Of a stretch of 64,000 nucleotides of DNA, positions 46,134 to 62,903 are shown piece by piece. The DNA is taken from the NCBI RefSeq assembly GCF_036347135.1, contig NZ_CP108938.1, forward strand, positions 1,178,001-1,242,000. The letters run 5' to 3'. The position numbers were made by a program, and so were the translations under genes. Numbering within the stretch: position 1 is the stretch's first letter; the number at the start of each line of letters is the position of its first letter. A model generated the notes under the pieces. It was not told the DNA's origin and searched no databases. It was given only the letters and a program-made list of their open reading frames with translations. Source of the stretch: Streptomyces sp. NBC_00775. Its GTDB lineage: Bacteria > Actinomycetota > Actinomycetes > Streptomycetales > Streptomycetaceae.

Positions 46134-46236
46134 ACGGGTGATCGGGACGTCCGTCGGGCGCTCGTACGGTGCTGGGACCTGGGCTTGCAGGGCCCCTGCC
46201 CGCGGGCCTCCGGGAGTGCGTGATCTCCCGTGGGGA

Positions 46237-46255
46237 CCCCCGCTGACCAGGGGGG
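46237..46255 (+). terminator. Hairpin before the desaturase operators
   Basis: CCCCC (46237-46241) and GGGGGG (46250-46255) are followed by CTTT. It probably ends the DDAH transcript. Confidence 0.5.
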
Positions 46256-46270
46256 CTTTACAGCACACTT

Positions 46271-46318
46271 AACCTACGGTTTCGTAACCTACGGATACGT
46301 AGCCTACGATGCCGTAGG
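46271..46318. promoter_or_regulatory. Three tandem CCTACG-N4-CGTA dyads (operator array)
   Basis: CCTACG-GTTT-CGTAAC, CCTACG-GATA-CGTAGC and CCTACG-ATGC-CGTAGG are spaced exactly 15 bases apart, 41 bases before the desaturase GTG. The third has perfect 6-bp arms. A TetR-like repressor binding cooperatively would fit. Confidence 0.7.
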
Positions 46319-46358
46319 TTGCGTCCTCGCTTGTTGTACACGTCCCCCTGGAGCACCC

Positions 46359-47336
46359 GTGACGATCACTTCTCCCCACCTCGGCAGCCCGTCCGCCGCC
46401 TGGACCGACGCTCGACTGCTGTACGCGCTGGAAGAAGTGGTCGAGACCGAGCTCAACCGCCACCTGAAGGTGGCCAAGGACTGGATGCCCCACGAGTACG
46501 TGCCGTGGAGCGACGCCCGTAACTTCCCCGGCTTCTTCGAGGACGGCGAGGCCTGGGGCAAGGAGCAGTCCAAGGTCACCGAACTCGGCCGGATCGCGCT
46601 GGTCGTCAACCTCCTCACCGAGGACAACCTGCCCAGCTACCACCACGAGATCGCCTCGCTCTTCGGCCGTGACGGCGCCTGGGGCACCTGGGTGCACCGC
46701 TGGACCGCGGAAGAGGGCCGGCACGGCATCGTGATGCGCGACTACCTGCTCGCCTCGCGCGCCGTGGACCCCGACCAGCTCGAGGCGTTCCGCATGCAGC
46801 ACATGAGCGAGGGCTTCGAGTCGGACAACCGCCACTCGATGCTCCACTCGGTCGCCTACGTCGCCTTCCAGGAGCTCGCGACCCGCGTCTCGCACCGCAA
46901 CACCGGCCACCAGTCGGGCGACCCGGTCTGCGACCGCATGCTGGCGCGCATCGCGACCGACGAGAACCTGCACATGGTCTTCTACCGCAACCTGCTGAAG
47001 GCCGCGTTCGAGCTCGCCCCCGACCTCACCATGCAGGCCGTGCGTGACGTCATCGTCAACTTCCGGATGCCCGGTCACGGCATGCCCGGCTTCGAGCGCG
47101 CCGCCGCGCAGATGGCCATCGGCGAGGTCTACAACATGCGCATCCACCACGACGACGTGCTCCAGCCGGTGCTGCGCCACCTCAAGGTCCTGGAGATCGA
47201 CGGCCTCGGACCCGAGGGCCTGCAGGCCCAGGAGGAGCTCGGCTTCTTCATGGGCGGTCTGGACGCGGAGGCCTCCAAGTTCGACGAGAAGCTCGCCGCC
47301 CGCAAGGCGCGCATGGCGGCACGCGCCGCCGGCTGA
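46359..47336 (+). CDS. Acyl-ACP desaturase (stearoyl-ACP desaturase family)
   Basis: 325 residues. Soluble di-iron four-helix bundle enzyme that inserts a double bond into acyl-ACP. Iron ligands are in LEEVVETELNRHL, WTAEEGRHGIVMRDYL and RIATDENLHMVFYR (the E...EExxH...DENxH pattern). GTG at 46359 with GGAG at 46350-46353; the open frame upstream reads through the operator repeats and is not coding. Expression is probably gated by the 15-bp dyad array, consistent with control of membrane fluidity or lipid desaturation. Confidence 0.9.
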   Translation: MTITSPHLGSPSAAWTDARLLYALEEVVETELNRHLKVAKDWMPHEYVPWSDARNFPGFFEDGEAWGKEQSKVTELGRIALVVNLLTEDNLPSYHHEIASLFGRDGAWGTWVHRWTAEEGRHGIVMRDYLLASRAVDPDQLEAFRMQHMSEGFESDNRHSMLHSVAYVAFQELATRVSHRNTGHQSGDPVCDRMLARIATDENLHMVFYRNLLKAAFELAPDLTMQAVRDVIVNFRMPGHGMPGFERAAAQMAIGEVYNMRIHHDDVLQPVLRHLKVLEIDGLGPEGLQAQEELGFFMGGLDAEASKFDEKLAARKARMAARAAG

Positions 47337-47363: not shown

Positions 47364-50300
47364 TCACTCCTGCGCCGTCACCTGGTCCAGCGCCGCGTCC
47401 CGCACGTCGGCCACCGGGTGGCGGCGCAGTGCTCTCAGCTGCTGCCGCCAGGGCGCGGCCCAGCCGGTACGGCTGCCGATCGCCCCGGTGACGGCCGCCG
47501 CGAGCAGCCCCTCGCCGTGCCCGCCGTGCGCGGTCAGCCTCCGTACCGCGACGAGCAGTGCCTCGGGATCCCCCTCGTGCGCCTGCCGCCGCAGCCGCTC
47601 CCCGAGCTCCCCGGCCGTCCGGGCGGCGAGCGCGGGCCGGCCCTCGGTGAGGGCGGCCAGCCGCTCCAGCCGCCCCAGGTCGGCGTCCAGGTCCAGGTGG
47701 TACGCCGTGATCGCGGCCGCCTGCGGTACAAAGGCGTCGTACCCGGCGAGCAGCTCACCGGCGGCGAGAGCCGCGGGACGGATGGGTCCCGGGACCGTCC
47801 TGGCCTGCAGGGCCAGGCGTGCGACGAGGTGGTCGACGCGCTGCCGGGCCGGCCGGTCCCGCCGCTCGTCCGCATCGGCATCGGCCTCCGCCGCGCTGCC
47901 GGTCTCCGTGTCCACCTCGGCCAAGGCCCTCAGCGCCTGCTCAAGCCCCAGGCCACCCCGTGGCGAACCCGCCGCCGCGGTCACCAGACCGCCCGCCGCC
48001 GCCCGCCAGCTCGTGCGTCCCGTCAGATCGGTGACGGCGTCGGCGAGAACCGTCGGGGCATCCGGGGACCAGGGCGCCCAGCGGGCCAGGGCGTCGAAGG
48101 CGAGGGTCGCCGTCTCCGCGTCGTCGGTGGAGGACACGTCGCGGATCAGCCGGGCGTAGCGCTCGCGGTGCGGCTCGGGCAGGTCCAGCGGGGTGACACG
48201 CAGGACCGCGGTGCGGAGCACCGGTTCGGCGCCGGCGGCGGCGCGCAGCAGGTCCCAGACCGGTTCCTCGGCGAGCAGGCCGCCCGCGAAGGCCACGATG
48301 GCGGCGCGGACGTCGAGGTGGGCGCCCGGCGCCGCGTACACCTCGGTCAGCAGCGCCGCCGCCCGCGGCATCGGAAGCCGTACGGCGGCGAGCCGGGCGG
48401 CCTCCTTGCGGCTGGTCACCTTGGCGCGCGACGCGAACAGCACGGCGCGCAGCTGCTCGGCGAGGCGCGACGGCGCCGCGTACCGGGACGCCTGCGTGGC
48501 CGCGTACACGGCGACCCGTGCCCGCTCCCCGCCCGCGTGCGCCAGCAGCTCGGGCAGCGCGTCGGCGGGCCGGTCGGTGCGGGCGAGCGCGGCGAGGGCC
48601 GCCTCGGCGAGCACCACGTCCGGCGAATCCGTCCACCGGCGTACGAGATCGGCGCCGCTGCCCGGGACCAGCGCGCCCCGCGCGACGGCCGCGGCCCGCT
48701 GGTACAGCGGCAGCCCGGCGTCCTCGGCCTCCGCCGTCAGCTGCCGGGCCACCGCGAGGTGTTGGCGCGGAACCCAGCGGCGTACATCGCGGTCCACCGG
48801 TACGGTCCAGGGGGTGCCCTTGGTCAGAAAGCGCCCGTACGGCGGGGCCTCGGCGAGCAGCGGGTCGAGCAGATCGGTGCGGCGCCGGGTGACGATCCCG
48901 AGGACGGGCCACAGCGCACCGGCCGACGGTTCGAGCGCGAGAACGCGCGCCACGCGCTCGTCCCGTGTCGCGGGCGACTCCAGCCACAGTTCGACGGCGG
49001 AGCGCACGGTCCCGTCGTTGCCGTATCGGATGGCCTGCCACAGGAGTTCCTGCAGCTCGGGCATACCGGCGGCGCGGCGGCCCACCGCGCGGGCGAGTGC
49101 GAACGCGAGGCTGTAGTCGGCCTTCTCGGCGCCCGCCTCGACCCAGGGGCGCAGGGCCTCGTACACCTGGTGTTCCTGGCCGCGGCGCAGCCTCGCGTCG
49201 AGCCGGCCGAGGTCGGCGCCGCCGGTGTTGCCGGATATCCGGACCAGGGTGCGCAGCGCCCAGTTCACCAACTCCCGGCGCCCGCTTGCCGCGTGCTCGC
49301 GCAGGACGGACACCGCGAGCCTGCTGAGGTTCTGCCGGGTGGCGGGCGAGGAGTCGCGGGCCTCGACAGCGTCCAGGGCGATCCGGTCGAGGTGCGGCTC
49401 GGCGTCCTCGGTGAACAGCGCGGGCCGCACCCCGGAGAGCGCGCCGAGCGCGGCCGAGCGCACCGGGTCGTGTTCGTTGCGCAGCCGCCCCATCTCCCGC
49501 AGTACGGAGGTGACGGCGGCCGAGTCGCCGGAGCGGGCGGCGTTGCGGATGAGCAACGGCCAGGCCTCGGCGCGGTCTTCGGCGGCCGGGCGGCGGGTGG
49601 CCTCGACGAGCCGGTCGCGTACCTCGGCGACGGGCAGGAAGGAATCGGCGAGCAGCAGGGAGTTCCACTGGGCGCCGCCCTCACGCGCGGCGGCGGCCAT
49701 GCGGCGGGCCTCCTCGGCGACGCAACTGCGCGGCAGCACTTCGAGGATGGCCGCGTCGATGGTGACGTGTCCGGCTCCGCGGCCTTCCTGCGCGGCCCGG
49801 TAGAAGGCGTGGCGTCGCGCCGGCGGCAACGCCTTCACGAGCGGTGCGAGATCACCCCAGTCGGCCAAGGCCCGCCCGTACGACCCGAGTTCGGGCGCTC
49901 CGGAGCGGGCCAGCCTGCGCAGCACGGCGGGGCCCAGGGACCGGCTGCGGCGTGCGGCGAATCCGGTCGGCGTGAGCAGCAGTCTCAGCAGCCGGCTCGG
50001 GTCGGCTGCCGCGAACTCCGCGAAGCGCTCACGGAGTTGGTGCGGAAGGGTGGCGGGCCCGAAGCGTTCGAGCAGGTCGAGCACGCGCAGCGGCTCCGCC
50101 GCGACCGTGGCGGCCACACCCGGCGCGTACCGGCTCCACCAGGTGGCGTGCGTCGCCTCGGGCAGCGCCGTCAACTCCCGTTCGGCGACGTCGAGAAGGA
50201 GGCCAGGATGCCGCTTGGCGAGGGTCTTCCAGCCGGTGACCGCGTGGAAGAGTTCGGGAAGCAGTCCGCCGACCGTCTCCGCCGTGCACCCGGGGAGCAG

Positions 50301-50732
50301 TCGGGCCGCCTCCGCGTCGCCCCAGTCGCGCCGCAGGCCGTCCACGAGCCGGTCGGCGAGTGCGGTGCGCCGTCCCGCGACGATGGCGCGCAGCAGCTCT
50401 CTGCGGACCGCCTCGGGGGCGTCGTCGAGAGCCGACTCGTAGGCGGAGTCGGGCACGTGCAGGCTTTCGGCGACGCGCAGGGCGTGGCCGCGCACGAAGG
50501 CGTCCGGGTCGGCGACGCGGTCCGCGATCCACTCGGCGTCCCGGCCGACGGACGCCGCGACGACCGCGATCCCGCGTTCGTGGGGTCCGCGCACTTCGAG
50601 CTCCTCCAGCACCGGCCGCAGCGGCACCATCTCCCTCACCCGCAGGGCGAGTTCGCGCATGCGCTGCGGGTGAGGGAGCGGATCGAGGGCGTTCAGCAGA
50701 CTGTCGGCATCCTGCCGCGGGGTGCGGGCCAT
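47364..50732 (-). CDS. Large helical-repeat (HEAT-like) protein of 1,122 residues
   Basis: Almost entirely alpha-helical, with dozens of about 35-45-residue Leu/Ala/Arg-rich units (for example AVRRELLRAIVAGRRTALADRLVDGLRRDWG and EVRDRLVEATRRPAAEDRAEAWPLLIRNAARSGD) that look like HEAT/armadillo solenoid repeats. No enzyme motif, signal or membrane segment is seen. Scaffold or RNA/protein-binding role is inferred. ATG at 50732; CACAAT (minus strand, 50744-50739) six bases upstream suggests a leaderless mRNA. Divergent from another helical protein and next to the vWA/AAA+ operons. Confidence 0.8.
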   Translation of the reverse strand: MARTPRQDADSLLNALDPLPHPQRMRELALRVREMVPLRPVLEELEVRGPHERGIAVVAASVGRDAEWIADRVADPDAFVRGHALRVAESLHVPDSAYESALDDAPEAVRRELLRAIVAGRRTALADRLVDGLRRDWGDAEAARLLPGCTAETVGGLLPELFHAVTGWKTLAKRHPGLLLDVAERELTALPEATHATWWSRYAPGVAATVAAEPLRVLDLLERFGPATLPHQLRERFAEFAAADPSRLLRLLLTPTGFAARRSRSLGPAVLRRLARSGAPELGSYGRALADWGDLAPLVKALPPARRHAFYRAAQEGRGAGHVTIDAAILEVLPRSCVAEEARRMAAAAREGGAQWNSLLLADSFLPVAEVRDRLVEATRRPAAEDRAEAWPLLIRNAARSGDSAAVTSVLREMGRLRNEHDPVRSAALGALSGVRPALFTEDAEPHLDRIALDAVEARDSSPATRQNLSRLAVSVLREHAASGRRELVNWALRTLVRISGNTGGADLGRLDARLRRGQEHQVYEALRPWVEAGAEKADYSLAFALARAVGRRAAGMPELQELLWQAIRYGNDGTVRSAVELWLESPATRDERVARVLALEPSAGALWPVLGIVTRRRTDLLDPLLAEAPPYGRFLTKGTPWTVPVDRDVRRWVPRQHLAVARQLTAEAEDAGLPLYQRAAAVARGALVPGSGADLVRRWTDSPDVVLAEAALAALARTDRPADALPELLAHAGGERARVAVYAATQASRYAAPSRLAEQLRAVLFASRAKVTSRKEAARLAAVRLPMPRAAALLTEVYAAPGAHLDVRAAIVAFAGGLLAEEPVWDLLRAAAGAEPVLRTAVLRVTPLDLPEPHRERYARLIRDVSSTDDAETATLAFDALARWAPWSPDAPTVLADAVTDLTGRTSWRAAAGGLVTAAAGSPRGGLGLEQALRALAEVDTETGSAAEADADADERRDRPARQRVDHLVARLALQARTVPGPIRPAALAAGELLAGYDAFVPQAAAITAYHLDLDADLGRLERLAALTEGRPALAARTAGELGERLRRQAHEGDPEALLVAVRRLTAHGGHGEGLLAAAVTGAIGSRTGWAAPWRQQLRALRRHPVADVRDAALDQVTAQE

Positions 50733-50814
50733 GCGGGGATTGTGCCTGCTGGAAGCCGTACCGCGTACTGATTTCCCGGTGCGGACCGCCGGGCGGCCGG
50801 GGCATCATGCGCCC

Positions 50815-51660
50815 ATGCATGACATCAGTACGTCGAGACGCGCGATCGAGTTCCTGCTGGGTCTGATCGGGTCCGACGACGCCGAGCGGGTGAGGGGGCG
50901 GATCGGGCTGCCCGAGCCCGATGCCGACGAGCGCACGCACAACCGCCGCGTGCTGTACTCCGTTTGGAAGTCGATCGCCCTGCCGTCCTCCGTTCTGCTG
51001 TGGGCACTGGAGGAGGACGATCCGGAGCGGAACGTCGTCGTGTGGGGGCACAAGTCGGCGGACGACGCGATGCGCCGGGCCGTCATGCTGGGCGTGCCCC
51101 ACGGCCCCGGCCGCACCCATGCCGTACGGGTCGACAAGGTGCTGCGCCACGAGCCGGAGCTACCGGTGCCGCGGCACTTCAGCACGTACGGGCTCATCGG
51201 TGCGCTGCGGGCGTCGACGTCCATGGGGCCCGCCAGGTCGGCCGCGTCCATGGTTCTGGGGCGGCGGGGATGGCAGGCGGTCGCCGACGCGGACCGGGAG
51301 CGTCCGCTGCCCGGTTACGCGCGCTGGGCGCTGACCGTGCGCCCCGACTGCCCGCCCGCGCTGCGCGCCCGGTTCGGCTCGCACGCGAAGTTCACCCACC
51401 GGGTGCGGCAGGCGGGCGTCATCGACGGTCCCGCGCAGTACGCGACGGCATGGAGTCCCGCGAGCCGCGTGCTGACGGTGCTGTTCCTGGGCGTGACCTT
51501 GTTCCCGACGCGCGTCGGGGAGGCCGAGGACGCGCTACGGCCGCTCGTACGGGACCATTTGGGAGACCGTGAGGACGCCTGGGCGGTGCTCGGCCAGCTG
51601 ATCGGGACGTTCCAAGGGAGCGTTCCGGAGCTGGTGATCACGGCGGGGGCGATCGCCTGA
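50815..51660 (+). CDS. Unrecognised helical protein, 281 residues
   Basis: Mostly helical, with no known motif: HDISTSRRAIEFLLGLIGSDDAERVRGRIGLPEPDADERTHNRRVLYSVWKSIALPSSVLLWALEEDDPERNVVVWGHK. The middle part resembles degenerate solenoid repeats like those of its divergent neighbour. ATG at 50815 (MHDIST); the frame upstream is not used. Convergent with tRNA-like gene 1, which ends 36 bases past the stop. Membership in the vWA/AAA+ locus is inference from position only. Confidence 0.65.
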   Translation: MHDISTSRRAIEFLLGLIGSDDAERVRGRIGLPEPDADERTHNRRVLYSVWKSIALPSSVLLWALEEDDPERNVVVWGHKSADDAMRRAVMLGVPHGPGRTHAVRVDKVLRHEPELPVPRHFSTYGLIGALRASTSMGPARSAASMVLGRRGWQAVADADRERPLPGYARWALTVRPDCPPALRARFGSHAKFTHRVRQAGVIDGPAQYATAWSPASRVLTVLFLGVTLFPTRVGEAEDALRPLVRDHLGDREDAWAVLGQLIGTFQGSVPELVITAGAIA

Positions 51661-51695
51661 CCGGCACCTTCGTTGTGGCGAGGGGGCGGGAGGGG

Positions 51696-51769
51696 GCGGG
51701 GCGGCTGGATTCGAACCAGCGTGTTCTGGTTTTGGAGACCGGTGCGCCTGCCTCTGCGCTACGGCCCCG
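51696..51769 (-). tRNA. tRNA-like gene 1, anticodon CCA (Trp-type), atypical body
   Basis: Cloverleaf on the minus strand: D-stem GCGC/GCGC with loop AGAGGCAG, anticodon stem with CTCCAAA loop (anticodon CCA at 51735-51733), 5-base variable loop, perfect T-stem GCTGG/CCAGC with TTCGAAT. The acceptor stem pairs only with one bulged C (CGGGGC-C-G against CGCCCCG), and the anticodon stem has a C-A mismatch. No CCA is encoded. It may be a pseudo-tRNA, an unusual tRNA-Trp, or a tRNA-shaped regulatory RNA. It is divergent from the vWA gene. Confidence 0.7.
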
Positions 51770-51858
51770 CCCTTGGCGCCGAGGGTAATGCCTTGGCCCG
51801 ATGTCAGTGCGGCCTGGTACCAAAGAGGCAATGGGGGAGATCGGACACGGGGGCGGGC

Positions 51859-53256
51859 ATGGCGTACGGAGAGCGGGGGCGACGGCCTGTCGTCGATCTG
51901 GCGGACCGCAGGGCGCTGGAGCGGTTCCGGCCGGCCGACGCGGAGGTCGTCGAGCAGGCGCGGCGGCTCAAGGAGGCCGCGCTGCTGGACTTCGGGCTGA
52001 CGGAGTCGGCGGTGGCCTCCTGGCTGTACGCGAAGTGCCACCACCAGCTGGCGACGACAGCGGTGGACACGGCTGCCGTGGTGGCCTCAGGCGACGGTTC
52101 CTGTCTGCTTCTCTACAATCCGGGCTTTTTCGTACGACTCGGCCTGGACGGCGTGAAGTTCGTGCTGTTCCACGAGGCCCGGCATCTGGTGCAGCGGCAT
52201 CTGTTCGCCGACCCGGAGCTGCGCGCGGACCCGGTCTTCGAGGTGGCCACGGAGGTGTCCATCAACCATGTGGCGCTGGTGCGGCTCGGCAGGGACGGCC
52301 TGCCCCTGCTGGACGGCCGTCCGACGGGCATCGATCCGCGCGAGATCCACGAGGCGTACCGGGAGGACCTGCTCGCGCAGGGTCTTGAGCCGGTCGCGTA
52401 CGACGAGTTCACCCAGACCGACATGACGGTGTACGGCGAGCTGAAGAGGATGCGGCATCCTCCGGTTCCCGCCGGACGGCTGTGTGTGCATCTGACGTCC
52501 GACGTGCCCGCCGACCAGGAGACGGTCGACGAGGTCTCCTCCTCCGCGCTGCTCAACGCGCTGCTGGCGGCCCGCCGCGGGCACGCGGGCGCCGAGCAGG
52601 AGCTGCTGGATCTGATGGGCCGCACCGAGGACGCCTCGGCGCGGGCCGCGAAGATCTGGGGGCAGCTGGGCGCCGGTGAGCTGCGCGGCGAGACCGCGCG
52701 GACGCGGACGGTCGACTGGTGGCAGCGCTGGCTGGTCGACGTGCTCGGTTCGAAACTGCGTGACGGCGAGCGGCTGGTGTACCCGAAGAAGCGGGGTGCG
52801 CTGCTCGCGGCGCTGGGCCAGGACCCGATGCTCTCGCGGCGCGGCCCGGTGCGCGACAAGGTCCTCGTCATCGCGTACGACACCTCGGGCTCCATGCCCG
52901 ACCGGGTGGTCGACTGGCTCACCGACCTCGTCGGACGGATCGACGGGGTCGAGGCGCACTGGCTGTCCTTCGATGCCGTGGTGATGCCCTTCGAGCCGGG
53001 CGGCCGGGTCTACGGCGGAGGCGGCACGAGCTTCCAGGCCGTCGCGGACTACGTGGAGGGGCGTACGGAGGTGAACGGCCGCCGCTGCGAGGTGAGTCCG
53101 GACGCCGTGGTGATGCTGACCGACGGATACGCCCCGCCGATCACGCCCGCCGAGCCCGACAAATGGATCTGGCTGATCACCGAGGGCGGCCATGAGTGGC
53201 CCGACAGCCACATACCGGCGATGGACTGCCATCGCGTGAGCACCGGATCGCACTAG
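51859..53256 (+). CDS. DUF2201-type metallopeptidase/vWA domain protein
   Basis: 465 residues. N-terminal putative metallopeptidase domain with HEARH at 105-109 followed by His114, and SINHVALVRLGRDGLPLLDGRPTG. C-terminal von Willebrand A domain with MIDAS DTSGS at 341-345 and GGGGTSFQAV, VVMLTDGYAPP. This is the COG3864 class of predicted metal-dependent peptidase. ATG at 51859; the frame before it is antisense to tRNA-like 1 and yields only a characteristic WIRTSVF...PLRYGP peptide. MoxR partner 29 bases downstream. Family roles: substrate-loading adaptor or chaperone with AAA+ ATPase. Confidence 0.85.
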   Translation: MAYGERGRRPVVDLADRRALERFRPADAEVVEQARRLKEAALLDFGLTESAVASWLYAKCHHQLATTAVDTAAVVASGDGSCLLLYNPGFFVRLGLDGVKFVLFHEARHLVQRHLFADPELRADPVFEVATEVSINHVALVRLGRDGLPLLDGRPTGIDPREIHEAYREDLLAQGLEPVAYDEFTQTDMTVYGELKRMRHPPVPAGRLCVHLTSDVPADQETVDEVSSSALLNALLAARRGHAGAEQELLDLMGRTEDASARAAKIWGQLGAGELRGETARTRTVDWWQRWLVDVLGSKLRDGERLVYPKKRGALLAALGQDPMLSRRGPVRDKVLVIAYDTSGSMPDRVVDWLTDLVGRIDGVEAHWLSFDAVVMPFEPGGRVYGGGGTSFQAVADYVEGRTEVNGRRCEVSPDAVVMLTDGYAPPITPAEPDKWIWLITEGGHEWPDSHIPAMDCHRVSTGSH

Positions 53257-53285
53257 TGACTCCCCACAGCACAGGACCAGGACGG

Positions 53286-55100
53286 ATGACTACCGCCATC
53301 AACCCCACCCACCCCGACCGCACCGCACCCGCGCCCTCCCGCCTCGAGTCGTTCATCGACGCGCTGATCGACATGGGGCAGACGGGCCAGATCTTCGGCG
53401 AGCACGGCATCGGCAAGACGGCGACGTTCTTCTCTCATGTGGCGCGCGCCCACCCCGACGCCACGCTGGTCTACGTACCCGCGGCGAACCTCACCCCGGA
53501 CGACCTGCTCGTCAACGCGCCGGTACGGGACCCGCGCACCGGCGAACTCGTGCTGCGCCAGCTGGTGATGAGCCAGCTCAAGCCCGGCACGCCGTTCGTG
53601 CTGCTCATCGACGACTCGCTCCAGGCCGGTGAGACGATCCAGTCGCAGCTGATGCAGATCGCCTGCAACTGGACGCTGGGCGAGCACGATCTGCGCGCCC
53701 TGGGCTGCATCGGAGTCTTCCTCACCGACAACGAGTCGCTGGGCGAGACCTCCGCGCGGCGCAGCGACCTGGCGCTCCTGGACCGCATGGTCACGATGCG
53801 GATCACCGCGAACGACACCTCGTGGCGGCGCCATCTCGTGGCCAAGTACCGCGAATGGGACCTGGATCCGGTGTTCTCCCTGTGGGCGTCCCTCAGCCCC
53901 ACGCTCCGCGAACGGCTGTCGCCGCGCACGCTGGACCATGTCCTGGCCAACGCCCGGGAGGGCTTCCCGCTGCGCTGGGCCCTGCCGCTGGTGGGCGGCG
54001 AGCGGCTGCGGCTCGTCGAGCCCCGCCCGGACGGAAAGCCCGGTCAGAACCGTACGGCCGAGATCCTGGACCGGATCGCCGAGCACGTGGGCGTGTCCAA
54101 TCCGTCGACGATCCCCGATCCCGTCCGTCAGGTCCTGCGGGCCGCGCTGCGCAATCGCTGGACGGTGCTGCTGCAGGGCCCGCCGGGCTGCGGGAAGACG
54201 GAGCTCGTACGGGAGACGGTGCGCGAGGGGCTGGGCCGGGAGCCGCTGTACTTCTCGCTGCCGGTGACCAATGTCGAGGACCTGTGCGCGCCGATCCCGT
54301 CGGCGGACGGCACGCTGGACAACCTGCTCGCGGCGGGCTTCACGGGGCCCGAGCCGAAGGCGATCGTCTGGGACGAGTACAACCGCCCCAAGGACAAGGC
54401 CGCCTTCGCCAAGCTGATGGAGATCACCCAGGAGTGGTCGCTGGCGGGGCGCCGGATCGAGAACCTGCGGGCGCAGATAGCCGTGCAGAATCCGCCCTAC
54501 CACCTGGGCCGCAAGCTCCTGGTCTCGCGGAACAACATCGCTCAGGCGACCCGTTTCACGGCCTCGCTGACGGTCGAGCCCGAGGACATCCCGGCCAATG
54601 AGTGGCTGCTCGCGCGGTACGGCTCGGACGCCGAGACCGTCCTGGAGTGGTGGAAGCACGACATCGACGACGACGGCCGCGCCTGGATCACCAAGCGGAC
54701 CCTGGAGCGCCTCATCAAGCTGCACCGGCGCGGGCTGCCACTGGAGATGGCGACGGTCTATCTCGGCGACGGCGAGTACGCCCCGGTGCCGCTGACGGCG
54801 CTCGTCGACCGCCTGAGCGGACGCCCGGTGACCGGTCTGCGCGAGCTCGCGCGCGAGGCGGACGCCTGGGAGGCCCGGCTGCGGCGCGCGGCGGAGCACT
54901 CCGACGAGGGTGCCAATGACAGCGATGTGGTGCACCAGGTGCTTGCCAACGCCGAGCTGTCCCAGCTGAAGAAGCACCGGAAGGTGGTGGCCCGCCTTGT
55001 GCCGCTGCTGCCGCCGAAACTGCGGGCGACGTATCTGGTGGGGGCGACGCAGGAGCAGCAGCGGTTCTGGACGGAGATATTCATGGGCATGCGGCGCTGA
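53286..55100 (+). CDS. MoxR-like protein with two AAA+ modules
   Basis: 604 residues with two nucleotide-binding modules. Module 1: Walker A GEHGIGKT (38-45) and Walker B VLLIDD (Asp109-Asp110). Module 2: Walker A GPPGCGKT (298-305) and Walker B IVWDE (Asp363-Glu364). A helical C-terminal part follows (about 440-604). ATG at 53286 with AGGA four bases upstream; a GTG at 53256 overlapping the previous stop is possible. MoxR AAA+ proteins work with vWA partners, here the preceding gene. Its stop abuts that of the LRR gene (TGATCA). Confidence 0.85.
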   Translation: MTTAINPTHPDRTAPAPSRLESFIDALIDMGQTGQIFGEHGIGKTATFFSHVARAHPDATLVYVPAANLTPDDLLVNAPVRDPRTGELVLRQLVMSQLKPGTPFVLLIDDSLQAGETIQSQLMQIACNWTLGEHDLRALGCIGVFLTDNESLGETSARRSDLALLDRMVTMRITANDTSWRRHLVAKYREWDLDPVFSLWASLSPTLRERLSPRTLDHVLANAREGFPLRWALPLVGGERLRLVEPRPDGKPGQNRTAEILDRIAEHVGVSNPSTIPDPVRQVLRAALRNRWTVLLQGPPGCGKTELVRETVREGLGREPLYFSLPVTNVEDLCAPIPSADGTLDNLLAAGFTGPEPKAIVWDEYNRPKDKAAFAKLMEITQEWSLAGRRIENLRAQIAVQNPPYHLGRKLLVSRNNIAQATRFTASLTVEPEDIPANEWLLARYGSDAETVLEWWKHDIDDDGRAWITKRTLERLIKLHRRGLPLEMATVYLGDGEYAPVPLTALVDRLSGRPVTGLRELAREADAWEARLRRAAEHSDEGANDSDVVHQVLANAELSQLKKHRKVVARLVPLLPPKLRATYLVGATQEQQRFWTEIFMGMRR

Positions 55101-56318
55101 TCACCGGTGGTCGTCGCCGTCCGGGGGCGCCGTGCGGTGCACGCTGCGTACGGCGGCGACGTCGGCCGGGACCGACGGCATCGGGACGTGCGCGCTCAGC
55201 GCCTCCAGGCGCCGCTTGACGCTGGTCGCGATGCCTTGTCCGAGGACGAAGCGGGTGGCCGTGACGGCGCTCGGTGCGGTGTCGAGGAGGCGGTGGGCCT
55301 CGCGGCTGCGCATGCCGGTGTGGGTGAGGACCAGGTGGGTGAGGCGGTGTTCGGCGCTCGCGAGGGCGTCCGCGATCGCCTCGGCGGCCGTGAGGTCGAC
55401 ACGGTTGTCGGCCGCGCCGAGGACGGCAGCCGCCCGTACGCGCCCCAGGTCGAGCAGCGTGACCCCGGCCGCGGTCGCCGCTGTCACCAGTCGGGCGGCG
55501 GCTCCCGGCCCGATGCCGTTGCTGGCGACGGAGAGCCGGCCGAGCCGTCCGTGCGGCGCCCGCTCCAGCGCGGCGGCGAGCCGGAGCGCGCCCCCGTCGC
55601 CCAACCGCGCCGCTGACACATAGAGTTCGCCGATCGCGCCCGCGACGATCAGCGCGGCGAGGGGTACGGCGCCGTCCGCGCCCAACGGGTTGCCGCCGAT
55701 GAACAGCCGCTCGATGCGGCGGCCGTTCTCCGCCGCGGCGAGGAGGGCGTCGGCGAGGACGACCGTGCCCGCCGCGTCGAGCCCGGTCTGGACGAGGTCG
55801 AGGGTGCGCAACGACCGTGCGGCTTCGATGAGTTCGGCGGCGGCCTGCCCTCCCCCGCTGTCGAGCGGGTTGCGCTTGAGCCACACCCCGGTGACGACGC
55901 GTGGCGATGCGCGCAGGTTGTCGGCGATGCGGCAGGCGCCGCCCGCGGTGATGCCGTTGCAGCCGAGGTAGAGCGTCTCGACGTCCGCGCCCGCTGACAC
56001 GGCGGCGGCGCCCTCGTCGCCGAGCCCGTCGGTTCCGAGCAGCAAGTGCCTTACGGGGGAGGGCCCTTCGGACCGCTCGGACAGCGCCTCGGCGACCAGC
56101 GCGGCACCCTGCGCTCCGATCCCCTGCTTGCACAGGTCGAGCCGGCCGTCGGGCAGCGCGGTACCCGCCGTGAAGTCCAGCCGCTCCCCGGCCGGACGGC
56201 CACCGCGCAACCAGTCGAGCAGCGGTGCCAGTTCGGCCACCGGGCGGGGCACGACCGGCGGCACGCCCGCGAACTTCGCCCCGGACTCCGGCTCTGTCTC
56301 CGGATCGGGCTCGCTCAC
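55101..56318 (-). CDS. Leucine-rich-repeat (ribonuclease-inhibitor-like) protein
   Basis: 405 residues containing at least eight RNI-type LRRs of about 28 residues: VETLYLGCNGITAGGACRIADNL, LRTLDLVQTGLDAAGTVVLADAL, IERLFIGGNPLGADGAVPLAAL, GRLGRLSVASNGIGPGAAARL, LTHLVLTHTGMRSREAHRLL. Cytoplasmic binding scaffold, with no signal or enzymatic domain. Starts GTG at 56318 (or 56321) overlapping the upstream SDR stop as GTGA, with GGGAGG upstream: translational coupling. Converges tail to tail on the MoxR gene. Confidence 0.85.
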   Translation of the reverse strand: MSEPDPETEPESGAKFAGVPPVVPRPVAELAPLLDWLRGGRPAGERLDFTAGTALPDGRLDLCKQGIGAQGAALVAEALSERSEGPSPVRHLLLGTDGLGDEGAAAVSAGADVETLYLGCNGITAGGACRIADNLRASPRVVTGVWLKRNPLDSGGGQAAAELIEAARSLRTLDLVQTGLDAAGTVVLADALLAAAENGRRIERLFIGGNPLGADGAVPLAALIVAGAIGELYVSAARLGDGGALRLAAALERAPHGRLGRLSVASNGIGPGAAARLVTAATAAGVTLLDLGRVRAAAVLGAADNRVDLTAAEAIADALASAEHRLTHLVLTHTGMRSREAHRLLDTAPSAVTATRFVLGQGIATSVKRRLEALSAHVPMPSVPADVAAVRSVHRTAPPDGDDHR

Positions 56319-57661
56319 CACTCCGCCTCCCGGTAGTCCTTGAGGAACACGCCGGACAGGGGCTCTCCCGCCTCACCGCGCACGATCGGGTCGTACACCC
56401 GGGCCGCCCCGTCCACGATGTCCAGCGGCGTACGGAACCCCGCACCCGCCATCCGCTCCTTCTTGGGAGCGGGGTTCTCGTCGGTGATCCAGCCGGTGTC
56501 GACCGCGCACATGTGCACGCCCTGCTGCGCCAGTTCGGCGGCGCTCGTGCGGGTGAGCATGTTGAGGGCGGCCTTCGCCATATTGGTGTGCGGATGGCCG
56601 GCCATCTTGTTGCGGACGGCGAAGCGGCCCTCGACGGCCGTCACGTTGACGACATAGCGGCGCGGGTGGGGCGAGGCGAGGAGCAGCGGGAGCAGCCGGT
56701 CGCAGAGCAGCGCCGGGGCGAGCGCGTTGACCAGTTGGGTCTCCAGCACCTCGGCCGGGTCGAGTTCGCCGAGCCGGGCCGACCAGGAGTTGTCCGGGGA
56801 GGGATCGGGCAGCAGGCCCGCCTCGTCGGCCTCGCGCAGCAGGACGGGCAGCGCCGAGGGGCCTCCCTCCAGCGCGCGCATCGGCGTGAACCCCGGTGCC
56901 TGCCGGGCTCCCTCGGGCAGCCCGGCGTACTCCCCCGCGGTCAGCAACGCGTACGACTCCGGGGGCCGTCGCACTGTCTGCGCGGCGTTGTTCACCAGGA
57001 TGTCGAGCGGCTCGCCCTCCTGCCGCAGCTGCTCGCACAGCCCGAGGACCTGCCGTGGGTCACGCAGGTCGACGGCCAGTACCGTCAGCCGGTCCAGCCA
57101 CTTCGCGCTCCCCGGCTCGGCCCGGAAGCGGCGCACGGTGTCGTGCGGGAAACGGCTGGTGACCAGCAGTTCGGCGCCGTCGCGCAGCATCATCAGGGCC
57201 AGCTGGAAGCCAATCTTGACCCTGCCCCCGGTGAGCAGCGCACGGCGGCCGCTCAGGTCGGTGGCGAGGGCGCGCCGGGCGGTGTTGTCGGCGGCGCAGT
57301 CCGGGCACAGCCGGTGATAGAAGGAGTCGACCTGTCGATAGGACGCCTTGCAGACATAGCAGGTGCGCGGCTTGCTGAAGACGCCTCCCGCACGGGCCGC
57401 ACCGTGATGGTGGGCCAGCGGCGCGTCCTCCCGCCGGTCGAGCGCACCCGTCGCGGTCGCCGCCATGGCGGCTGCGTCGGCGGCGGACAGCTCGGCGCCG
57501 CGCACCTTGCGCCTGCGCACCCGCCCGTCACGCGCGAAGGACGCGGCGACCTGCTCGGCCCGCAGCCGCACCGGGTCGTCCACGGACAGCGCCCGCAGCT
57601 TTCCGACCGTACGGTGGAAGGCCGCCAGCTCGTCCTCCGTGATCCCGCCGCCCTCACTCAT
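56315..57661 (-). CDS. Zinc-ribbon SDR-fold protein lacking the catalytic tyrosine
   Basis: 448 residues. N-terminal helical part (1-95), a four-Cys site CYVC (101-104) ... CPDC (119-122), then a Rossmann domain beginning ALLTGGRVKIG (141-151), DILVNNAAQTV, and VVNVTAVEGRF. The normal YxxxK is replaced by TNMAK (GHPHTNMAKAAL), so Tyr is absent while Lys remains: catalysis as a classical reductase is doubtful. ATG at 57661 with GGGGAC upstream. Read directly downstream of tRNA-like 2 (28 bases) and likely co-transcribed with it. Confidence 0.82.
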   Translation of the reverse strand: MSEGGGITEDELAAFHRTVGKLRALSVDDPVRLRAEQVAASFARDGRVRRRKVRGAELSAADAAAMAATATGALDRREDAPLAHHHGAARAGGVFSKPRTCYVCKASYRQVDSFYHRLCPDCAADNTARRALATDLSGRRALLTGGRVKIGFQLALMMLRDGAELLVTSRFPHDTVRRFRAEPGSAKWLDRLTVLAVDLRDPRQVLGLCEQLRQEGEPLDILVNNAAQTVRRPPESYALLTAGEYAGLPEGARQAPGFTPMRALEGGPSALPVLLREADEAGLLPDPSPDNSWSARLGELDPAEVLETQLVNALAPALLCDRLLPLLLASPHPRRYVVNVTAVEGRFAVRNKMAGHPHTNMAKAALNMLTRTSAAELAQQGVHMCAVDTGWITDENPAPKKERMAGAGFRTPLDIVDGAARVYDPIVRGEAGEPLSGVFLKDYREAEW

Positions 57662-57689
57662 GTGTCCCCGCCCCGACTGTGCGCTGAAG

Positions 57690-57761
57690 TGGTCCCGGCC
57701 GGATTCGAACCGGCGTATCCGCCTGAGCAAGGCGGCGAGTCTGCCTCTGCTCTACAGGACC
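57690..57761 (-). tRNA. tRNA-like gene 2, anticodon GCT, class-I body
   Basis: Acceptor GGTCCTG/CGGGACC (7 pairs, one G-U), discriminator A, D-stem GAGC/ACTC (three pairs, one mismatch) with loop AGAGGCAG, perfect anticodon stem CCGCC/GGCGG with loop TTGCTCA (anticodon GCT at 57728-57726), 4-base variable loop, T-arm GCCGG-TTCGAAT-CCGGC. The anticodon reads Ser AGC/AGU codons, but true tRNA-Ser has a long variable arm, absent here. 12 bases after tRNA-like 3 and 28 before the SDR gene. Confidence 0.75.
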
Positions 57762-57773
57762 GACGCGCGCGGG

Positions 57774-57846
57774 TCCGGGCGGCCGGATTCGAACCGGCGT
57801 AATCCTGCATGCCATGCAGGTGCGCCTGCCTCTGCGCTACGCCCGG
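57774..57846 (-). tRNA. tRNA-like gene 3, anticodon GGC, without Ala identity
   Basis: Complete cloverleaf: acceptor CCGGGCG/CGCCCGG (7 perfect pairs, C1-G72), discriminator A, D-stem GCGC/GCGC with loop AGAGGCAG, anticodon stem CCTGC/GCAGG with loop ATGGCAT (GGC at 57813-57811), 5-base variable loop, T-arm GCCGG-TTCGAAT-CCGGC. The anticodon is for Ala, but position 3-70 is G-C, not the G-U pair alanyl-tRNA synthetase needs. A -10-like TAAGAT (minus strand, 57864-57859) would start the RNA about six bases before the cloverleaf. Confidence 0.8.
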
Positions 57847-57858
57847 ATGCGCTCCCGG

Positions 57859-57864
57859 ATCTTA
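57859..57864 (-). promoter_or_regulatory. Possible -10 of the tRNA-like 3/2-SDR-LRR transcript
   Basis: TAAGAT on the minus strand, about 13 bases before the 5' end of tRNA-like 3. No good -35 is seen. Confidence 0.4.
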
Positions 57865-57942
57865 ACCGCACGCACACTGACCCGCCGTACCGATTTACGG
57901 CCCGCCTCCGCGGTGCAACGGTGCCCCCAGGGGGTGAACACC

Positions 57943-60414
57943 ATGGCCCAGACCCATGAGTGGATGTTCTACGAGGTCATGTGGCGCAGCTGGGCGGGGC
58001 GGGCGCAGGTCCCGTATCCCGTGCCCTGGTGGGCTCAGCAGGCCTTTCGGCGCTGGAGCGACGACTTCGACGCCGGTACGTACGACTCGAAGGAGGCGGC
58101 CTTCGCCTCCAATGCCCTGTACCGCTACTGGAACATGGTCGGCGTCAAGGACCATCGCCAGGAGTCCCTGATCGGGCAGGCGGGCGAGATCGAGCCGGTC
58201 TACGACAAGTACTGTCTCTCGTTCTTCCTGTACGACCCGGCGACCGGCGCACTGCGGCTGCCTCAACTGCCGGACACCGGAAGCGTCGAGCAGCGTATGG
58301 AGGCCCCGCATCTGCCGGTCGTGCTGACCACCTTCCGTACGCCGGAGGACGTGGAGTTCGTCCAGCGGACGTTCGCCACGACCGTGGGCCCGCGTCAGCG
58401 CGACCTCGTCGTCACGCGGGTTACCGTGGGCAGCCCGACGGGGCAGCCGCGCGAGGGGCTGCTCTGCGCGGCGCTGATGCCGGCCGGGCCGAGCGGCTTC
58501 CAGCGGCACGACCGCAACGGCCGGCAGATCACCGACCGCCGCCTCACGTATCTGCGCCATCTGCCGGACGAACAGCGCGTGGAGACCAACTCGGGCTGGG
58601 GACCGGTCTTCGACACCGCGCCCGACCAGTACGGGGTGTACGGCAATCCGGACTTCTCGTTCGACCCGGACGCGTATGTCTCGCACAGCCCGTTCCACGA
58701 CCTTGTGACGGGCGGGAAGCTGAACGGCGCGGTGGAGGCGCAGGACCAGGTGGCCGGCTTGTGCAGCGCGGTGTTCGGCTGGCCGTTCCGGGTCGCGGAG
58801 GACGAGGTCTTCGAGATCGACGTACGGCTGCCTGTGGACCTGTTCAGCGGGCCGGCCGATCTGGCGGAGCTGCGGGCGACCCCGGCGGCCGAACTGGAGT
58901 CCGCCAACCGGGACTTCTGGACGGCCAAGCTTCTCGGCCAAGGCCTGCAACCCCAACTTCCGCGCCCGGTGGGTCATCTGACCGACCTCTTCCGGCAGGC
59001 GCGCTCGCAGCTGCTGATCCTCTCCGACGGGGGTGAGATCCATCCGGGCCCCACGGTGTACGACTCGTTCTGGATCCGCGACTCGTCGGTGGAGGCTACG
59101 GCGTGCTCTCTCGTCGGCGACTCCGCCCTGGCGGAAACCCAGTTGGGCACGCACTATCCGCTGAAGTTCAACCTGGGCGGCGGGCGCGTCGGGCCCTGCG
59201 CCGAGTACGGCTTCTACGGCGGCCCGCACGAGAAGGACGACCACGAGTGGGACAGCAACGGCCAGGCGCTGTGGGCGATCGGCCGCTTCGACCGTACGAG
59301 CGGGGCCGCCGCGGCTTTCGGGGCGAAGCTGTATGTGCCGTACGTGCGCGATGCCGCCCGCTGGATCCGTGACAACCGTGACGGATATGGGCTGTTGCAC
59401 CAGGGCTGGAGCGCCGAACACCTCGGTGAACGCGACAAGCGGCACTTCTGGGACGACTTCTGGGCGCTGGCCGGGCTCTATGAGGCGGCCCGCCTCGCCG
59501 AGCGGATCGGCGCGCCCGAAGTACCCGAACTCTGGGGCACCTTCGACGACTTGAAGCGGGCCACCGGCGACGCGATCCGCTGGGTGCTGGGCGAGCAGCG
59601 CTCGCGCGGCGCGTGGGAGACGTACATTCCGACCGGCCCCGACGACGTCGGACGGCTCGACTCGACACTGATCGGCGCGGCGGCGTACTTCCATCCGCTG
59701 CGCCTGCACATGGGCAGCAAGCTGGGCGACGACGTGGACCGCGCGGCACGCTGCACGCTCGACACGATGTACGCCCACTTCGTGACCGGCGGCTACCGTC
59801 ACGAGGCGGCCTGGAACGCGTACGGGCCGTATCTCACCCTCCAGTTGGCGCACGCCTGTCTCCTCGCCGGCGACCCATCCCGGATGGACGAGCTGCTCGG
59901 CTGGGTGGTCGGCGCGGGCTTCCCGCAGACGGCGGGGCGGCCCGCCGCGCTGGGCGCGTGGAACGAGCAGCACGCCTTCCCCATCGCCTCGGACTTCGCC
60001 GAAGTCCCGTACCGGCACTGGTACATGGGCGACATGCCGCACGGCTGGGCAGCCGCCGAGTATCTGCTGCTGATCCGCGACATCCTCTTCTTCGAGGCCG
60101 ACGAGGACCGCGATCCGCATGTGTACATCGCGCCGGGCGTACGCCCGCACTGGGTGCCGGCGGGCGAAAGGGTCGCGGTGGACGCGGCGCCCACGCTCTT
60201 CGGGGAGCCGTTCGGATACCGGCTCACGCACGATCCGGTCGCGCGGACGGTGACGGTGGACATCACGCAGGCGCCGGAGCGGGTGCGGTTCGTCTATCCG
60301 TGCCGGTTCGGCGCGGTGCGGTCGGCGGCCGCGGACGGACGGCAGCTGACGGTGACGGGGAACGACGTACAGATACCGGCCGGGACGTGGCAGTTCACGG
60401 TGTCGTACGACTGA
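57943..60414 (+). CDS. Six-hairpin glycosidase-like protein (MGH1/GH63 type)
   Basis: 823 residues, cytoplasmic (no signal). N-terminal beta-rich domain (about 1-330) and an (alpha/alpha)6 barrel with YDSFWIRDSSVEATACSLVGDSALAETQL, DDHEWDSNGQALWAIGRF (acidic residues typical of inverting barrels), TYIPTGPDDVGRLDSTLIGAAAYF and WNEQHAFPIASDFAEVPYRHW. Substrate unknown; related barrels hydrolyse alpha- or beta-linked oligosaccharides. ATG at 57943 with GGGGGTGA upstream. The open frame from 57814 is antisense to tRNA-like 3. Confidence 0.8.
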   Translation: MAQTHEWMFYEVMWRSWAGRAQVPYPVPWWAQQAFRRWSDDFDAGTYDSKEAAFASNALYRYWNMVGVKDHRQESLIGQAGEIEPVYDKYCLSFFLYDPATGALRLPQLPDTGSVEQRMEAPHLPVVLTTFRTPEDVEFVQRTFATTVGPRQRDLVVTRVTVGSPTGQPREGLLCAALMPAGPSGFQRHDRNGRQITDRRLTYLRHLPDEQRVETNSGWGPVFDTAPDQYGVYGNPDFSFDPDAYVSHSPFHDLVTGGKLNGAVEAQDQVAGLCSAVFGWPFRVAEDEVFEIDVRLPVDLFSGPADLAELRATPAAELESANRDFWTAKLLGQGLQPQLPRPVGHLTDLFRQARSQLLILSDGGEIHPGPTVYDSFWIRDSSVEATACSLVGDSALAETQLGTHYPLKFNLGGGRVGPCAEYGFYGGPHEKDDHEWDSNGQALWAIGRFDRTSGAAAAFGAKLYVPYVRDAARWIRDNRDGYGLLHQGWSAEHLGERDKRHFWDDFWALAGLYEAARLAERIGAPEVPELWGTFDDLKRATGDAIRWVLGEQRSRGAWETYIPTGPDDVGRLDSTLIGAAAYFHPLRLHMGSKLGDDVDRAARCTLDTMYAHFVTGGYRHEAAWNAYGPYLTLQLAHACLLAGDPSRMDELLGWVVGAGFPQTAGRPAALGAWNEQHAFPIASDFAEVPYRHWYMGDMPHGWAAAEYLLLIRDILFFEADEDRDPHVYIAPGVRPHWVPAGERVAVDAAPTLFGEPFGYRLTHDPVARTVTVDITQAPERVRFVYPCRFGAVRSAAADGRQLTVTGNDVQIPAGTWQFTVSYD

Positions 60415-61960: not shown

Positions 61961-62800
61961 TCAGCCGTGCCACACCTCGGCCACGGACTCCGCGAGGGCG
62001 GTGGCCTGGGCGTGACCCGCGCGGGCGGCGGCCGGGCGGCGGGAGTTGTCCGTCATGTCGCGGCCCATCGCGCGGCGGGCGGTGTCATCCGGGGTCAGGA
62101 GGCTGATGCGGGCCCCGTCCGCGGCCAGTTCGGCGGCCTGCCGCTGGGCACTCGGGTGTGGGCCGACCGCCTTCGGAATGGGTGAGATCGCGACGATGCG
62201 ACGGTAGCCGCGAGCGAGATGGATGTTGCTGGTCGAGCGGCTGCCGCCGTCCATCCAGCGGCGCCCCCCGGCGCTGACGGGCGGCCAGATCACGGGCACC
62301 GCGCAGCTCGCGGCGACCGCTTCGAGGAGGGTCAGGCCCGAGGACGAGTCGAACGCCTCAAGGTTGCCGGTCCGCGCGTCGACCGCCGTGATCCGCAACT
62401 CCCGCTCGGGCCACTGCCGTACGCCGCCGAGCAAGGTGCCGACGGCGCCGAAGACCTCCGACTCGGGGGCGGTTCGGGCGGCCAGCGCGGCGCGGCCGAG
62501 GCGCTGGACGGAACGCCTCGGGTCCCGCGAGCCGAGTGCCGCCCACAGGAAGCGAGCCGTCTGCCCCAGGGTGACGGTGAGACCGATGGGGTCCACACCG
62601 CCGAGCTGAACCTCGTACAGCTCGGCGGCGGTGACACCGGACGCGAGCCGGGCGCCGAAGATCGCGCCCGCGGAGGTGCCGATCACTACATCGGCCGCCG
62701 CCACCTCGACACCGGCCTCGGCGAGTCCGGCGAGCACTCCGGCCATCCACGCCCCGCCGACCCACGCGCCACCGCCGAGTACCAGCGCCGTGTCCCCCAT
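61961..62800 (-). CDS. Patatin-like phospholipase family protein
   Basis: 279 residues. Oxyanion-hole loop GGGAWVGG (9-16), nucleophile elbow GTSAG with Ser43, and the second dyad member in RWMDGG. Lipid acyl hydrolase of the RssA-like type; no signal peptide. ATG at 62800 with GGAGGGGTGG upstream; the longer frame through the TetR gene is not coding. Divergent from a TetR regulator with two matching operator-like sites between them. Confidence 0.87.
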   Translation of the reverse strand: MGDTALVLGGGAWVGGAWMAGVLAGLAEAGVEVAAADVVIGTSAGAIFGARLASGVTAAELYEVQLGGVDPIGLTVTLGQTARFLWAALGSRDPRRSVQRLGRAALAARTAPESEVFGAVGTLLGGVRQWPERELRITAVDARTGNLEAFDSSSGLTLLEAVAASCAVPVIWPPVSAGGRRWMDGGSRSTSNIHLARGYRRIVAISPIPKAVGPHPSAQRQAAELAADGARISLLTPDDTARRAMGRDMTDNSRRPAAARAGHAQATALAESVAEVWHG

Positions 62801-62819
62801 CGATCCACCCCTCCCCCTC

Positions 62820-62881
62820 AAGTGGGGAGTACTCCCCACTTCCTGAGCCAACGATATCATCGATAACGGGGAATGGTCCCC
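62820..62881. promoter_or_regulatory. Two GGGGA-N4-TCCCC sites between patatin and TetR genes
   Basis: Site 1 (core 62824-62837) is the centre of a perfect 22-bp palindrome at 62820-62841. Site 2 (62868-62881) shares the same 5-4-5 core. Centres are 44 bp apart. Probable TetR operators. Confidence 0.65.
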
Positions 62882-62903
62882 GGTACTACCGGAGGGTGAG
62901 GTC

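Follow-up and report, generated by a model that had tools for sequence, protein, structure and literature searches.

The locus lies in a stretch of 64,000 nucleotides (the window), positions 1,178,001–1,242,000 of an 11.1-Mb single-contig genome whose nearest named relatives, judged by the AAA protein, are Streptomyces. Two convergent operons meet here. On the plus strand, a DUF2201_N/vWA protein with an HExxH metallopeptidase-like motif and a MIDAS (window positions 51859..53256; Pfam, motif residues) is followed by a double AAA+ ATPase of the MoxR/dynein-like type (53286..55100; Pfam AAA_5). On the minus strand, a Zn-ribbon SDR-fold protein that lacks the catalytic Ser and Tyr (56315..57661) is followed by an LRR protein of the ribonuclease-inhibitor type (55101..56321), an optional member of the set; the 3′ end of the SDR gene and the start of the LRR gene overlap by seven bases. 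The last bases of the two operons, 55100 and 55101, are adjacent. A 281-residue all-helical protein (50815..51660, plus strand; AlphaFold pLDDT 93.3, 19 helices) also belongs to the set.

Three tRNA-like genes, all on the minus strand, complete the locus. ARAGORN predicts each of them, and each exceeds the cut-off of 29 bits for the Rfam tRNA family RF00005. The RNA of the vWA slot (51693..51770; anticodon CCA; 44.1 bits) is divergent from the vWA gene. The RNA of SDR slot 1 (57689..57761; GCU; 51.6 bits) has a short variable loop, and its 3′ end lies 29 nt ahead of the predicted SDR start. The RNA of SDR slot 2 (57771..57847; GGC; 59.3 bits) is without G3:U70. Three tRNA-like genes, two convergent operons ending on adjacent stop codons and these gene identities had all been proposed in an initial annotation and are borne out; the Zn ribbon of the SDR protein is N-terminal.

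The same annotation counted a giant putative solenoid protein (1122 residues; 47364..50732, minus strand) into the system. At E 1e-20 this protein is matched in only 6 of 148 stretches and is therefore not core, but a neighbor in few relatives. (The 148 stretches comprise the window, 103 stretches around hits of the RNA pattern described below and 80 named loci; they partly overlap, and some genomes are present twice.) An 823-residue protein on the other flank (57943..60414, plus strand) has no Pfam, NCBIfam or PDB match and is a non-core neighbor in some relatives, with matches in 13 of the 148 stretches at the same threshold. Further out, an Rfam ASdes sRNA match (46713–46780, minus strand, 70.9 bits) lies opposite a 368-residue reading frame (46230–47336), and a patatin-like phospholipase gene (61961–63136; Pfam) lies downstream of the locus.

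All three RNAs have AGAGGCAG as their D-loop. They hold the D-arm and T-arm in common and differ in the acceptor and anticodon arms; RF00005 is their only Rfam match, with no match to a Y RNA family. A pattern of D-arm plus T-arm occurs at just these three sites in the 11.1-Mb genome. Among 293 genomes of the order, 38 contain the pattern in one to four copies each, and a reversed control pattern occurs in none. A structural scan of the 148 stretches with a fixed pattern recovered 244 such RNAs from 100 stretches, or 170 when identical sequences are counted once (distinct RNAs); the counts of RNAs and stretches include duplicates because some named loci and other genomes are the same strain. 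The scan misses some members that ARAGORN found (those of locus L054 and the second ones of L062 and L065). The pattern also matches a tRNA-Leu(UAA) by ARAGORN (L233, 1483–1559) in a genome of another family. RNA-bearing rows belong to Streptomycetaceae, Catenulisporaceae, Actinospicaceae and Pseudonocardiaceae, with one to six tRNA-likes per locus. The largest array seen is that of Kitasatospora paracochleata, where six tRNA-likes surround the SDR gene (L141, 14485–16410).

The cloverleaf is conserved as a structure. On 61 distinct members of equal length, 99.1% of the cells are paired, and 12 of 21 pairs have changed on both sides; 178 cells are changed on both sides versus 55.8 in shuffles. 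When the partners are slid by one base, pairing falls to 45–51%. The D-arm departs from that of an ordinary cloverleaf throughout the family by an extra base in the D-stem. C13 is invariant (244/244) and the D-loop ends in G in 243 of the 244 RNAs; the base that comes next varies (G 126, A 76, T 40, C 2). From this alignment we read the arm as a canonical D-loop AGAGGCA, closed by C13–G22, with one bulged base. In the CCA-type RNA of Streptomyces, the acceptor helix also has, by eye, a bulged base and an extension. The RNAs had previously been taken for whole tRNAs, which holds for the cloverleaf with its D- and T-loops and fails for the extra D-stem base, the exchangeable anticodon loops and a Catenulispora member without an ordinary anticodon arm. 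At 4,906,845–4,906,919 of genome G000 there is a further tRNA-Trp(CCA)-like gene; its D-loop is AGAGGTTG, its D-stem has the extra base as well, and its G73-CCA end is encoded. This type of gene is rare in the order (4 of 99 genomes) and may be close to the ancestor of the RNA family.

The RNAs are tightly coupled to the SDR gene. A protein search with the SDR at E 1e-80 found 56 positive genomes among the 293. These 56 include every one of the 38 pattern genomes, and the pattern is absent from all 237 SDR-negative genomes (Fisher p 2.5e-34, with shared descent ignored; this overlap and those of 27/33, ten and nine below were read by eye from match lists). The 18 SDR genomes without the pattern comprise three with a longer-looped RNA, one with a variant, two with decayed copies and 12 with none by ARAGORN. 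The vWA and AAA proteins are found in 33 and 34 of the 293 genomes, respectively, with no weaker matches down to E 1e-50. Twenty-seven of the 33 vWA genomes contain the pattern, three more have a longer-looped RNA, and three have neither; three vWA–AAA genomes have no SDR match and no RNA. Conversely, eleven pattern genomes have no vWA match at E 1e-50, one of them (G025) because its contig ends at that point. SDR and RNAs are kept in the remaining ten, nine of them also without an AAA match at E 1e-50, and SDR plus RNA therefore looks like the inner core of the set. That genes and RNAs form a linked set, as first suggested from the window, is thus genuine and conserved far above chance; the earlier observation is confirmed, and it is stronger than had been supposed.

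Named genomes were scanned with the vWA protein, and the best 80 loci among the 111 relatives were retained. Of these best 80, 78 have the AAA partner, 51 have RNAs, 48 have the SDR, and 46 have both RNAs and SDR. The two AAA-less loci end at contig edges, and in L159 and L160 other genes intervene between the partners. Five loci with RNA and without SDR are all cut by a contig end, two have a more distant SDR (51–54%) without RNAs, and 27 have neither. In 15 of 30 loci without recognized RNAs, the pair is accompanied by proteins of one linked cluster of large proteins, two tested members of which resemble the helical protein weakly, and in 6 to 7 of the 30 by an oxygenase-like protein (assigned by eye) and an LRR protein. 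In the latter arrangement, seen at L175 (13290–16324) and five similar loci, the neighbors of the RNA-less vWA–AAA pair, an oxygenase-like protein with HxD...H (by eye) and an LRR/TIGR02996 protein, parallel SDR–LRR. On a tree of 90 AAA proteins, RNA presence needs 4 changes versus 24.9 in shuffles, which fits one old gain and a few losses. A coherent RNA family coupled to these proteins is well supported.

The SDR protein keeps the Rossmann fold (model pLDDT 84.5; best Foldseek match to SDRs at E 6.5e-13), and its front part consists of a helical hairpin and a four-Cys ribbon. Its catalytic residues are lost. In the register taken from the alignment to 4ibo, 89 of 89 proteins have Ala at the position of the catalytic Ser and no Tyr before the Lys of YxxxK, a stretch that reads HPHTNMAK in nearly all of them; the second Gly of TGxxxGxG is Lys, again in 89 of 89. 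At a position beside the former catalytic Ser, all 71 RNA loci have Thr and 14 of 18 RNA-less loci have Ser, a comparison that ignores relatedness. Of the four exceptions, two have decayed RNAs, one (L054) has a CCA-type RNA that the scan missed, and one has none. A dead SDR fold that changes with the RNA is likely the RNA holder. An analogy is offered by human SDR5C1 (MRPP2) of mitochondrial RNase P, an SDR-fold tRNA platform that keeps its catalytic residues and acts in tRNA processing, whereas those of the set's SDR are gone.

In 94–95 of 95 distinct relatives of the vWA protein, HExxH and the MIDAS residues (DxSxS, T, D) are kept, and the AAA protein has Walker A residues in both modules in 88–90 of 90 rows, with Walker B reading IDD in the first module and WDE in the second. 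The best solved-structure matches of the LRR protein are MOP84A (E 3e-10) and then ribonuclease inhibitor (E 7.5e-9). The helical protein, despite its confident fold, has no solved-structure match at E 0.001; it is weakly similar (E about 1e-5) to two proteins of 840–870 residues beside RNA-less vWA–AAA pairs. PADLOC returned matches to the AAA region only, in one of seven proteins (best E 1.4e-7), and no system-specific match.

Against this constant background, the anticodon loop is the variable part of the RNA. Eight triplets account for 143 of 162 RNAs (CCA 38, CTC 23, GGC 17, GTC 17, GCC 15, GCT 14, GCA 10, CGC 9). Distinct RNAs of the SDR side carry 14 triplets; those of the vWA side are mostly CCA (28/34). 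Between close relatives (AAA identity of 94% or more), the differences per site in the SDR slots are 0.290 for the loop, 0.053 for the anticodon stem and 0.031 for the rest, and the triplet itself differs in 18 of the 32 slot pairs, which overlap. In 14 pairs of the vWA slot, it is the stem that changes (0.164), and the loop hardly does (0.041). Seven non-overlapping close pairs differ in the SDR slot at 20 of 84 loop sites versus 25 of 768 sites in the rest of the RNA (p 3.7e-10), and at 1308 of 10496 third codon positions of the SDR, vWA and AAA genes (p 0.004 versus the loop); loop bases change together in bursts, and both p values are therefore too small, overstating independence. These seven pairs were picked by eye from the 32-pair rows and provide 12 slot pairs, summed by hand, with slot pairs of unequal length left out. 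The SDR-slot loop thus changes ∼7–9 times faster than the remaining RNA and at about twice the rate of third codon positions, statistics with which selection and gene conversion would both be compatible.

The exchange can be seen in single cases. Between Streptomyces antibioticus and Streptomyces justiciae, both SDR-slot RNAs are identical except for the loops (GUC and GCA versus CUC and GCU), whereas the surrounding loci differ by 4–6%. The SDR slot 2 RNA in the window and the host's ordinary tRNA-Ala(GGC) have the same anticodon arm (17 of 17 bases), and such full identity to a host tRNA arm is found in 12 of the 143 RNAs that carry one of the eight commonest triplets. Such exact matches suggest that copying from host tRNA arms is one origin of new loops.

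Do these RNAs carry amino acids? They might be specialized aminoacyl donors, with the anticodon telling a synthetase the amino acid (Trp together with at least one of Glu, Asp, Ala, Gly, Ser and Cys) and the aminoacyl-RNA making a peptide or modifying a protein. The anticodons are indeed confined to a chemically sensible set, U33 is kept in 147 of 162 RNAs, and some arms are those of real tRNAs. We compared the distinct tRNA-likes with the identity elements that govern charging (U73, G73, A73, G3:U70 and the variable loop). Fitting discriminators are present in 9 of 17 Asp-type (G73) and 11 of 23 Glu-type RNAs (A73). However, for the most part the discriminator base and the other identity elements are not those that the anticodon calls for: U73 is found in 1 of 20 Gly-type RNAs and in none of the 10 Cys-type RNAs, G73 in 3 of 38 Trp-type RNAs (where the position is uncertain because of the bulged acceptor) and G3:U70 in 2 of 28 Ala-type RNAs, and the variable loops of all 13 Ser-type RNAs have 4–5 bases. 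Moreover, no protein of the set matches a synthetase or aminoacyl transferase family in Pfam or NCBIfam, and the SDR has lost its catalytic residues. We consider such a donor role unlikely. Ordinary tRNAs for all 20 amino acids are encoded elsewhere in the host (70 ARAGORN calls on own-genome stretches, one gene being counted twice via the overlapping stretches L009 and L199), including Trp(CCA), Ser(GCU) with a long arm, and Ala(GGC). Whether the RNAs are ordinary charged tRNAs had been raised at the outset; their sequences are unlike such tRNAs, with most identity elements missing, and they probably have no role in protein synthesis.

The position of the RNAs raises another explanation, that tRNA-like hairpins in the 5′ leader of the SDR–LRR operon control its expression by being cut by tRNA-processing enzymes or by blocking the start. 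A same-strand tRNA-like lies within 1500 nt upstream in 69 of 90 distinct SDR loci, its 3′ end at most 37 nt from the predicted start in 44 of the 69, and in Catenulispora one operon reads vWA–AAA–RNA–SDR–LRR, with an RNA that has no ordinary anticodon arm between AAA and SDR. However, the vWA-slot RNA and its gene diverge on opposite strands in 45 of 95 distinct vWA loci. Catenulispora also has further RNAs, with ordinary arms, clustered at a distance from the protein genes (∼7 Mb on the same contig in G003); this second cluster therefore acts in trans if it works with these proteins. A leader function would also leave the fast-changing loops unexplained, and we regard it as improbable to about the same degree as a donor role. 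The second Catenulispora cluster (L043–L048 near 9600–10240; L045 near 2600) is located between a conserved protein of 400–436 residues without a Pfam match and an MFS transporter.

A common body with canonical-looking anticodon loops, together with anticodon switching, would also suit regulators or saboteurs of translation, RNAs that, controlled by the AAA+/vWA machine and either uncharged or mischarged, would enter ribosomes at selected codons. The extra D-stem base should, however, disturb the tRNA core, and six of the seven acceptor pairs change on both sides (61 distinct members), so that no single synthetase signature is evident; we think this explanation has little chance of being correct. 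Least probable of all are ordinary or supernumerary tRNA genes hitchhiking beside an unrelated operon: ARAGORN and Rfam do label the RNAs as tRNAs, but the pattern is missing from every SDR-negative genome of the sample (237), the body is common across anticodons and carries the extra D-stem base, AGAGGCAG is found in 0 of the 70 ARAGORN calls on other own-genome stretches, and one member has no ordinary anticodon arm.

We also compared the set with known systems. The initial annotation had drawn a parallel to Ro60 and its Y RNAs. Ro60/Rsr–YrlA (Salmonella RNA-repair operon) likewise combines a tRNA-shaped noncoding RNA with Ro60, a vWA-type protein encoded beside it, and a vWA domain with MIDAS is present in the set. 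As kinship, however, the parallel found no support, with no Pfam match to TROVE in ten reading frames of the locus, no Y RNA family match and no match to RtcA or RtcB in the set; the only TROVE match of the genome (51.6 bits, partial) lies at genome position 8,277,068, far from the locus. In contrast to Ro60/YrlA, the set has near-complete tRNA folds, variable anticodon loops, an AAA+ protein and a pseudo-SDR. One study suggested the tRNA-like domain of YrlA to be a competitive inhibitor of an anticodon nuclease cutting tRNA-Trp(CCA) and tRNA-Cys(GCA), among others, and found that YrlA itself is not cut (PMC7790460); for the bait role proposed below, this is a precedent in idea only.

The MoxR–vWA machines RavA–ViaA, NorQ–NorD and CoxD–CoxE resemble the set in placing an AAA+ protein beside a vWA partner, but the set has two AAA modules per chain and a vWA fused to an HExxH domain, and adds the helical protein, SDR, LRR and RNA. 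Related in composition are the vWA–MoxR–VMAP ternary conflict systems. In PMC7159879 they are described as combining an AAA+/vWA pair, proposed to remodel a client in a complex, with a third, largely helical protein, and as being common in actinomycetes. The present set has another vWA (DUF2201) and the order helical protein–vWA–AAA instead of VMAP–MoxR–vWA; in the main text of that paper DUF2201 does not appear, and tRNA appears once. Among open papers, we found no description of this gene–RNA set. We rate the RNA family with variable loops and its protein partners as a new kind, whereas the parts of the machine are relatives of known ones.

We favor, with a probability of about 0.4, a chromosomal RNA–protein system in which noncoding tRNA mimics serve as baits or decoys for anticodon-targeting enzymes, a pseudo-SDR serves as their holder, and an AAA+/vWA machine acts on the signal. 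The conserved body (acceptor, bulged D-arm and T-arm) would be held by the catalytically dead Zn-ribbon SDR-fold protein, which the LRR protein of the ribonuclease-inhibitor type would often join, and would present an exchangeable, fast-evolving anticodon loop. This loop would be what anticodon nucleases recognize, and thus a bait or decoy for anticodon-loop-attacking enzymes, such as toxins made by rivals or phages. When the bait is engaged or cleaved, the signal would be passed to the double AAA+/vWA-metallopeptidase machine and its helical partner, which would remodel or cleave a target and so start a response. A constant body with a variable loop has the form of a receptor or bait, and the AAA+/vWA pair is proposed in PMC7159879 to remodel clients; we therefore propose loop cleavage or capture as the event that is sensed. 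Binding between RNAs and proteins, the bait role, the direction of signaling and the response are what we infer from these features. More tentatively, the RNAs may form a surveillance repertoire of constant-body tRNA-mimic receptors, with a loop renewed by point change or host-arm copying and a switch from the pseudo-SDR to the AAA+/vWA protease.

Several observations weigh against the bait reading. The dominance of eight triplets is one, in that a broad arms race need not give so narrow a set; the mostly fixed CCA of the vWA slot is another. The 12 SDR genomes without RNA, the RNA genomes without vWA (ten) and AAA (nine) and the three vWA–AAA genomes without SDR or RNA likewise count against it, as do the discriminators that fit in some Asp-type and Glu-type RNAs, the lack of a system-specific PADLOC match and the finding that YrlA itself is not cut. 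RNAs also often stand immediately ahead of the SDR start, a position that would suit a role in cis as well.

Automatic annotation would label these genes as tRNAs, so that a noncoding RNA family with fast-changing loops would stay unseen in sequenced genomes. If the bait reading is true, mimics of a bacterium's own tRNAs serve as its variable-region sensors, and how loop and attacking enzyme match would be directly testable. It would also give the first functional handle on the DUF2201/vWA–AAA pair, which has several kinds of partners in actinomycetes, and would show a pseudo-SDR working as an RNA partner.
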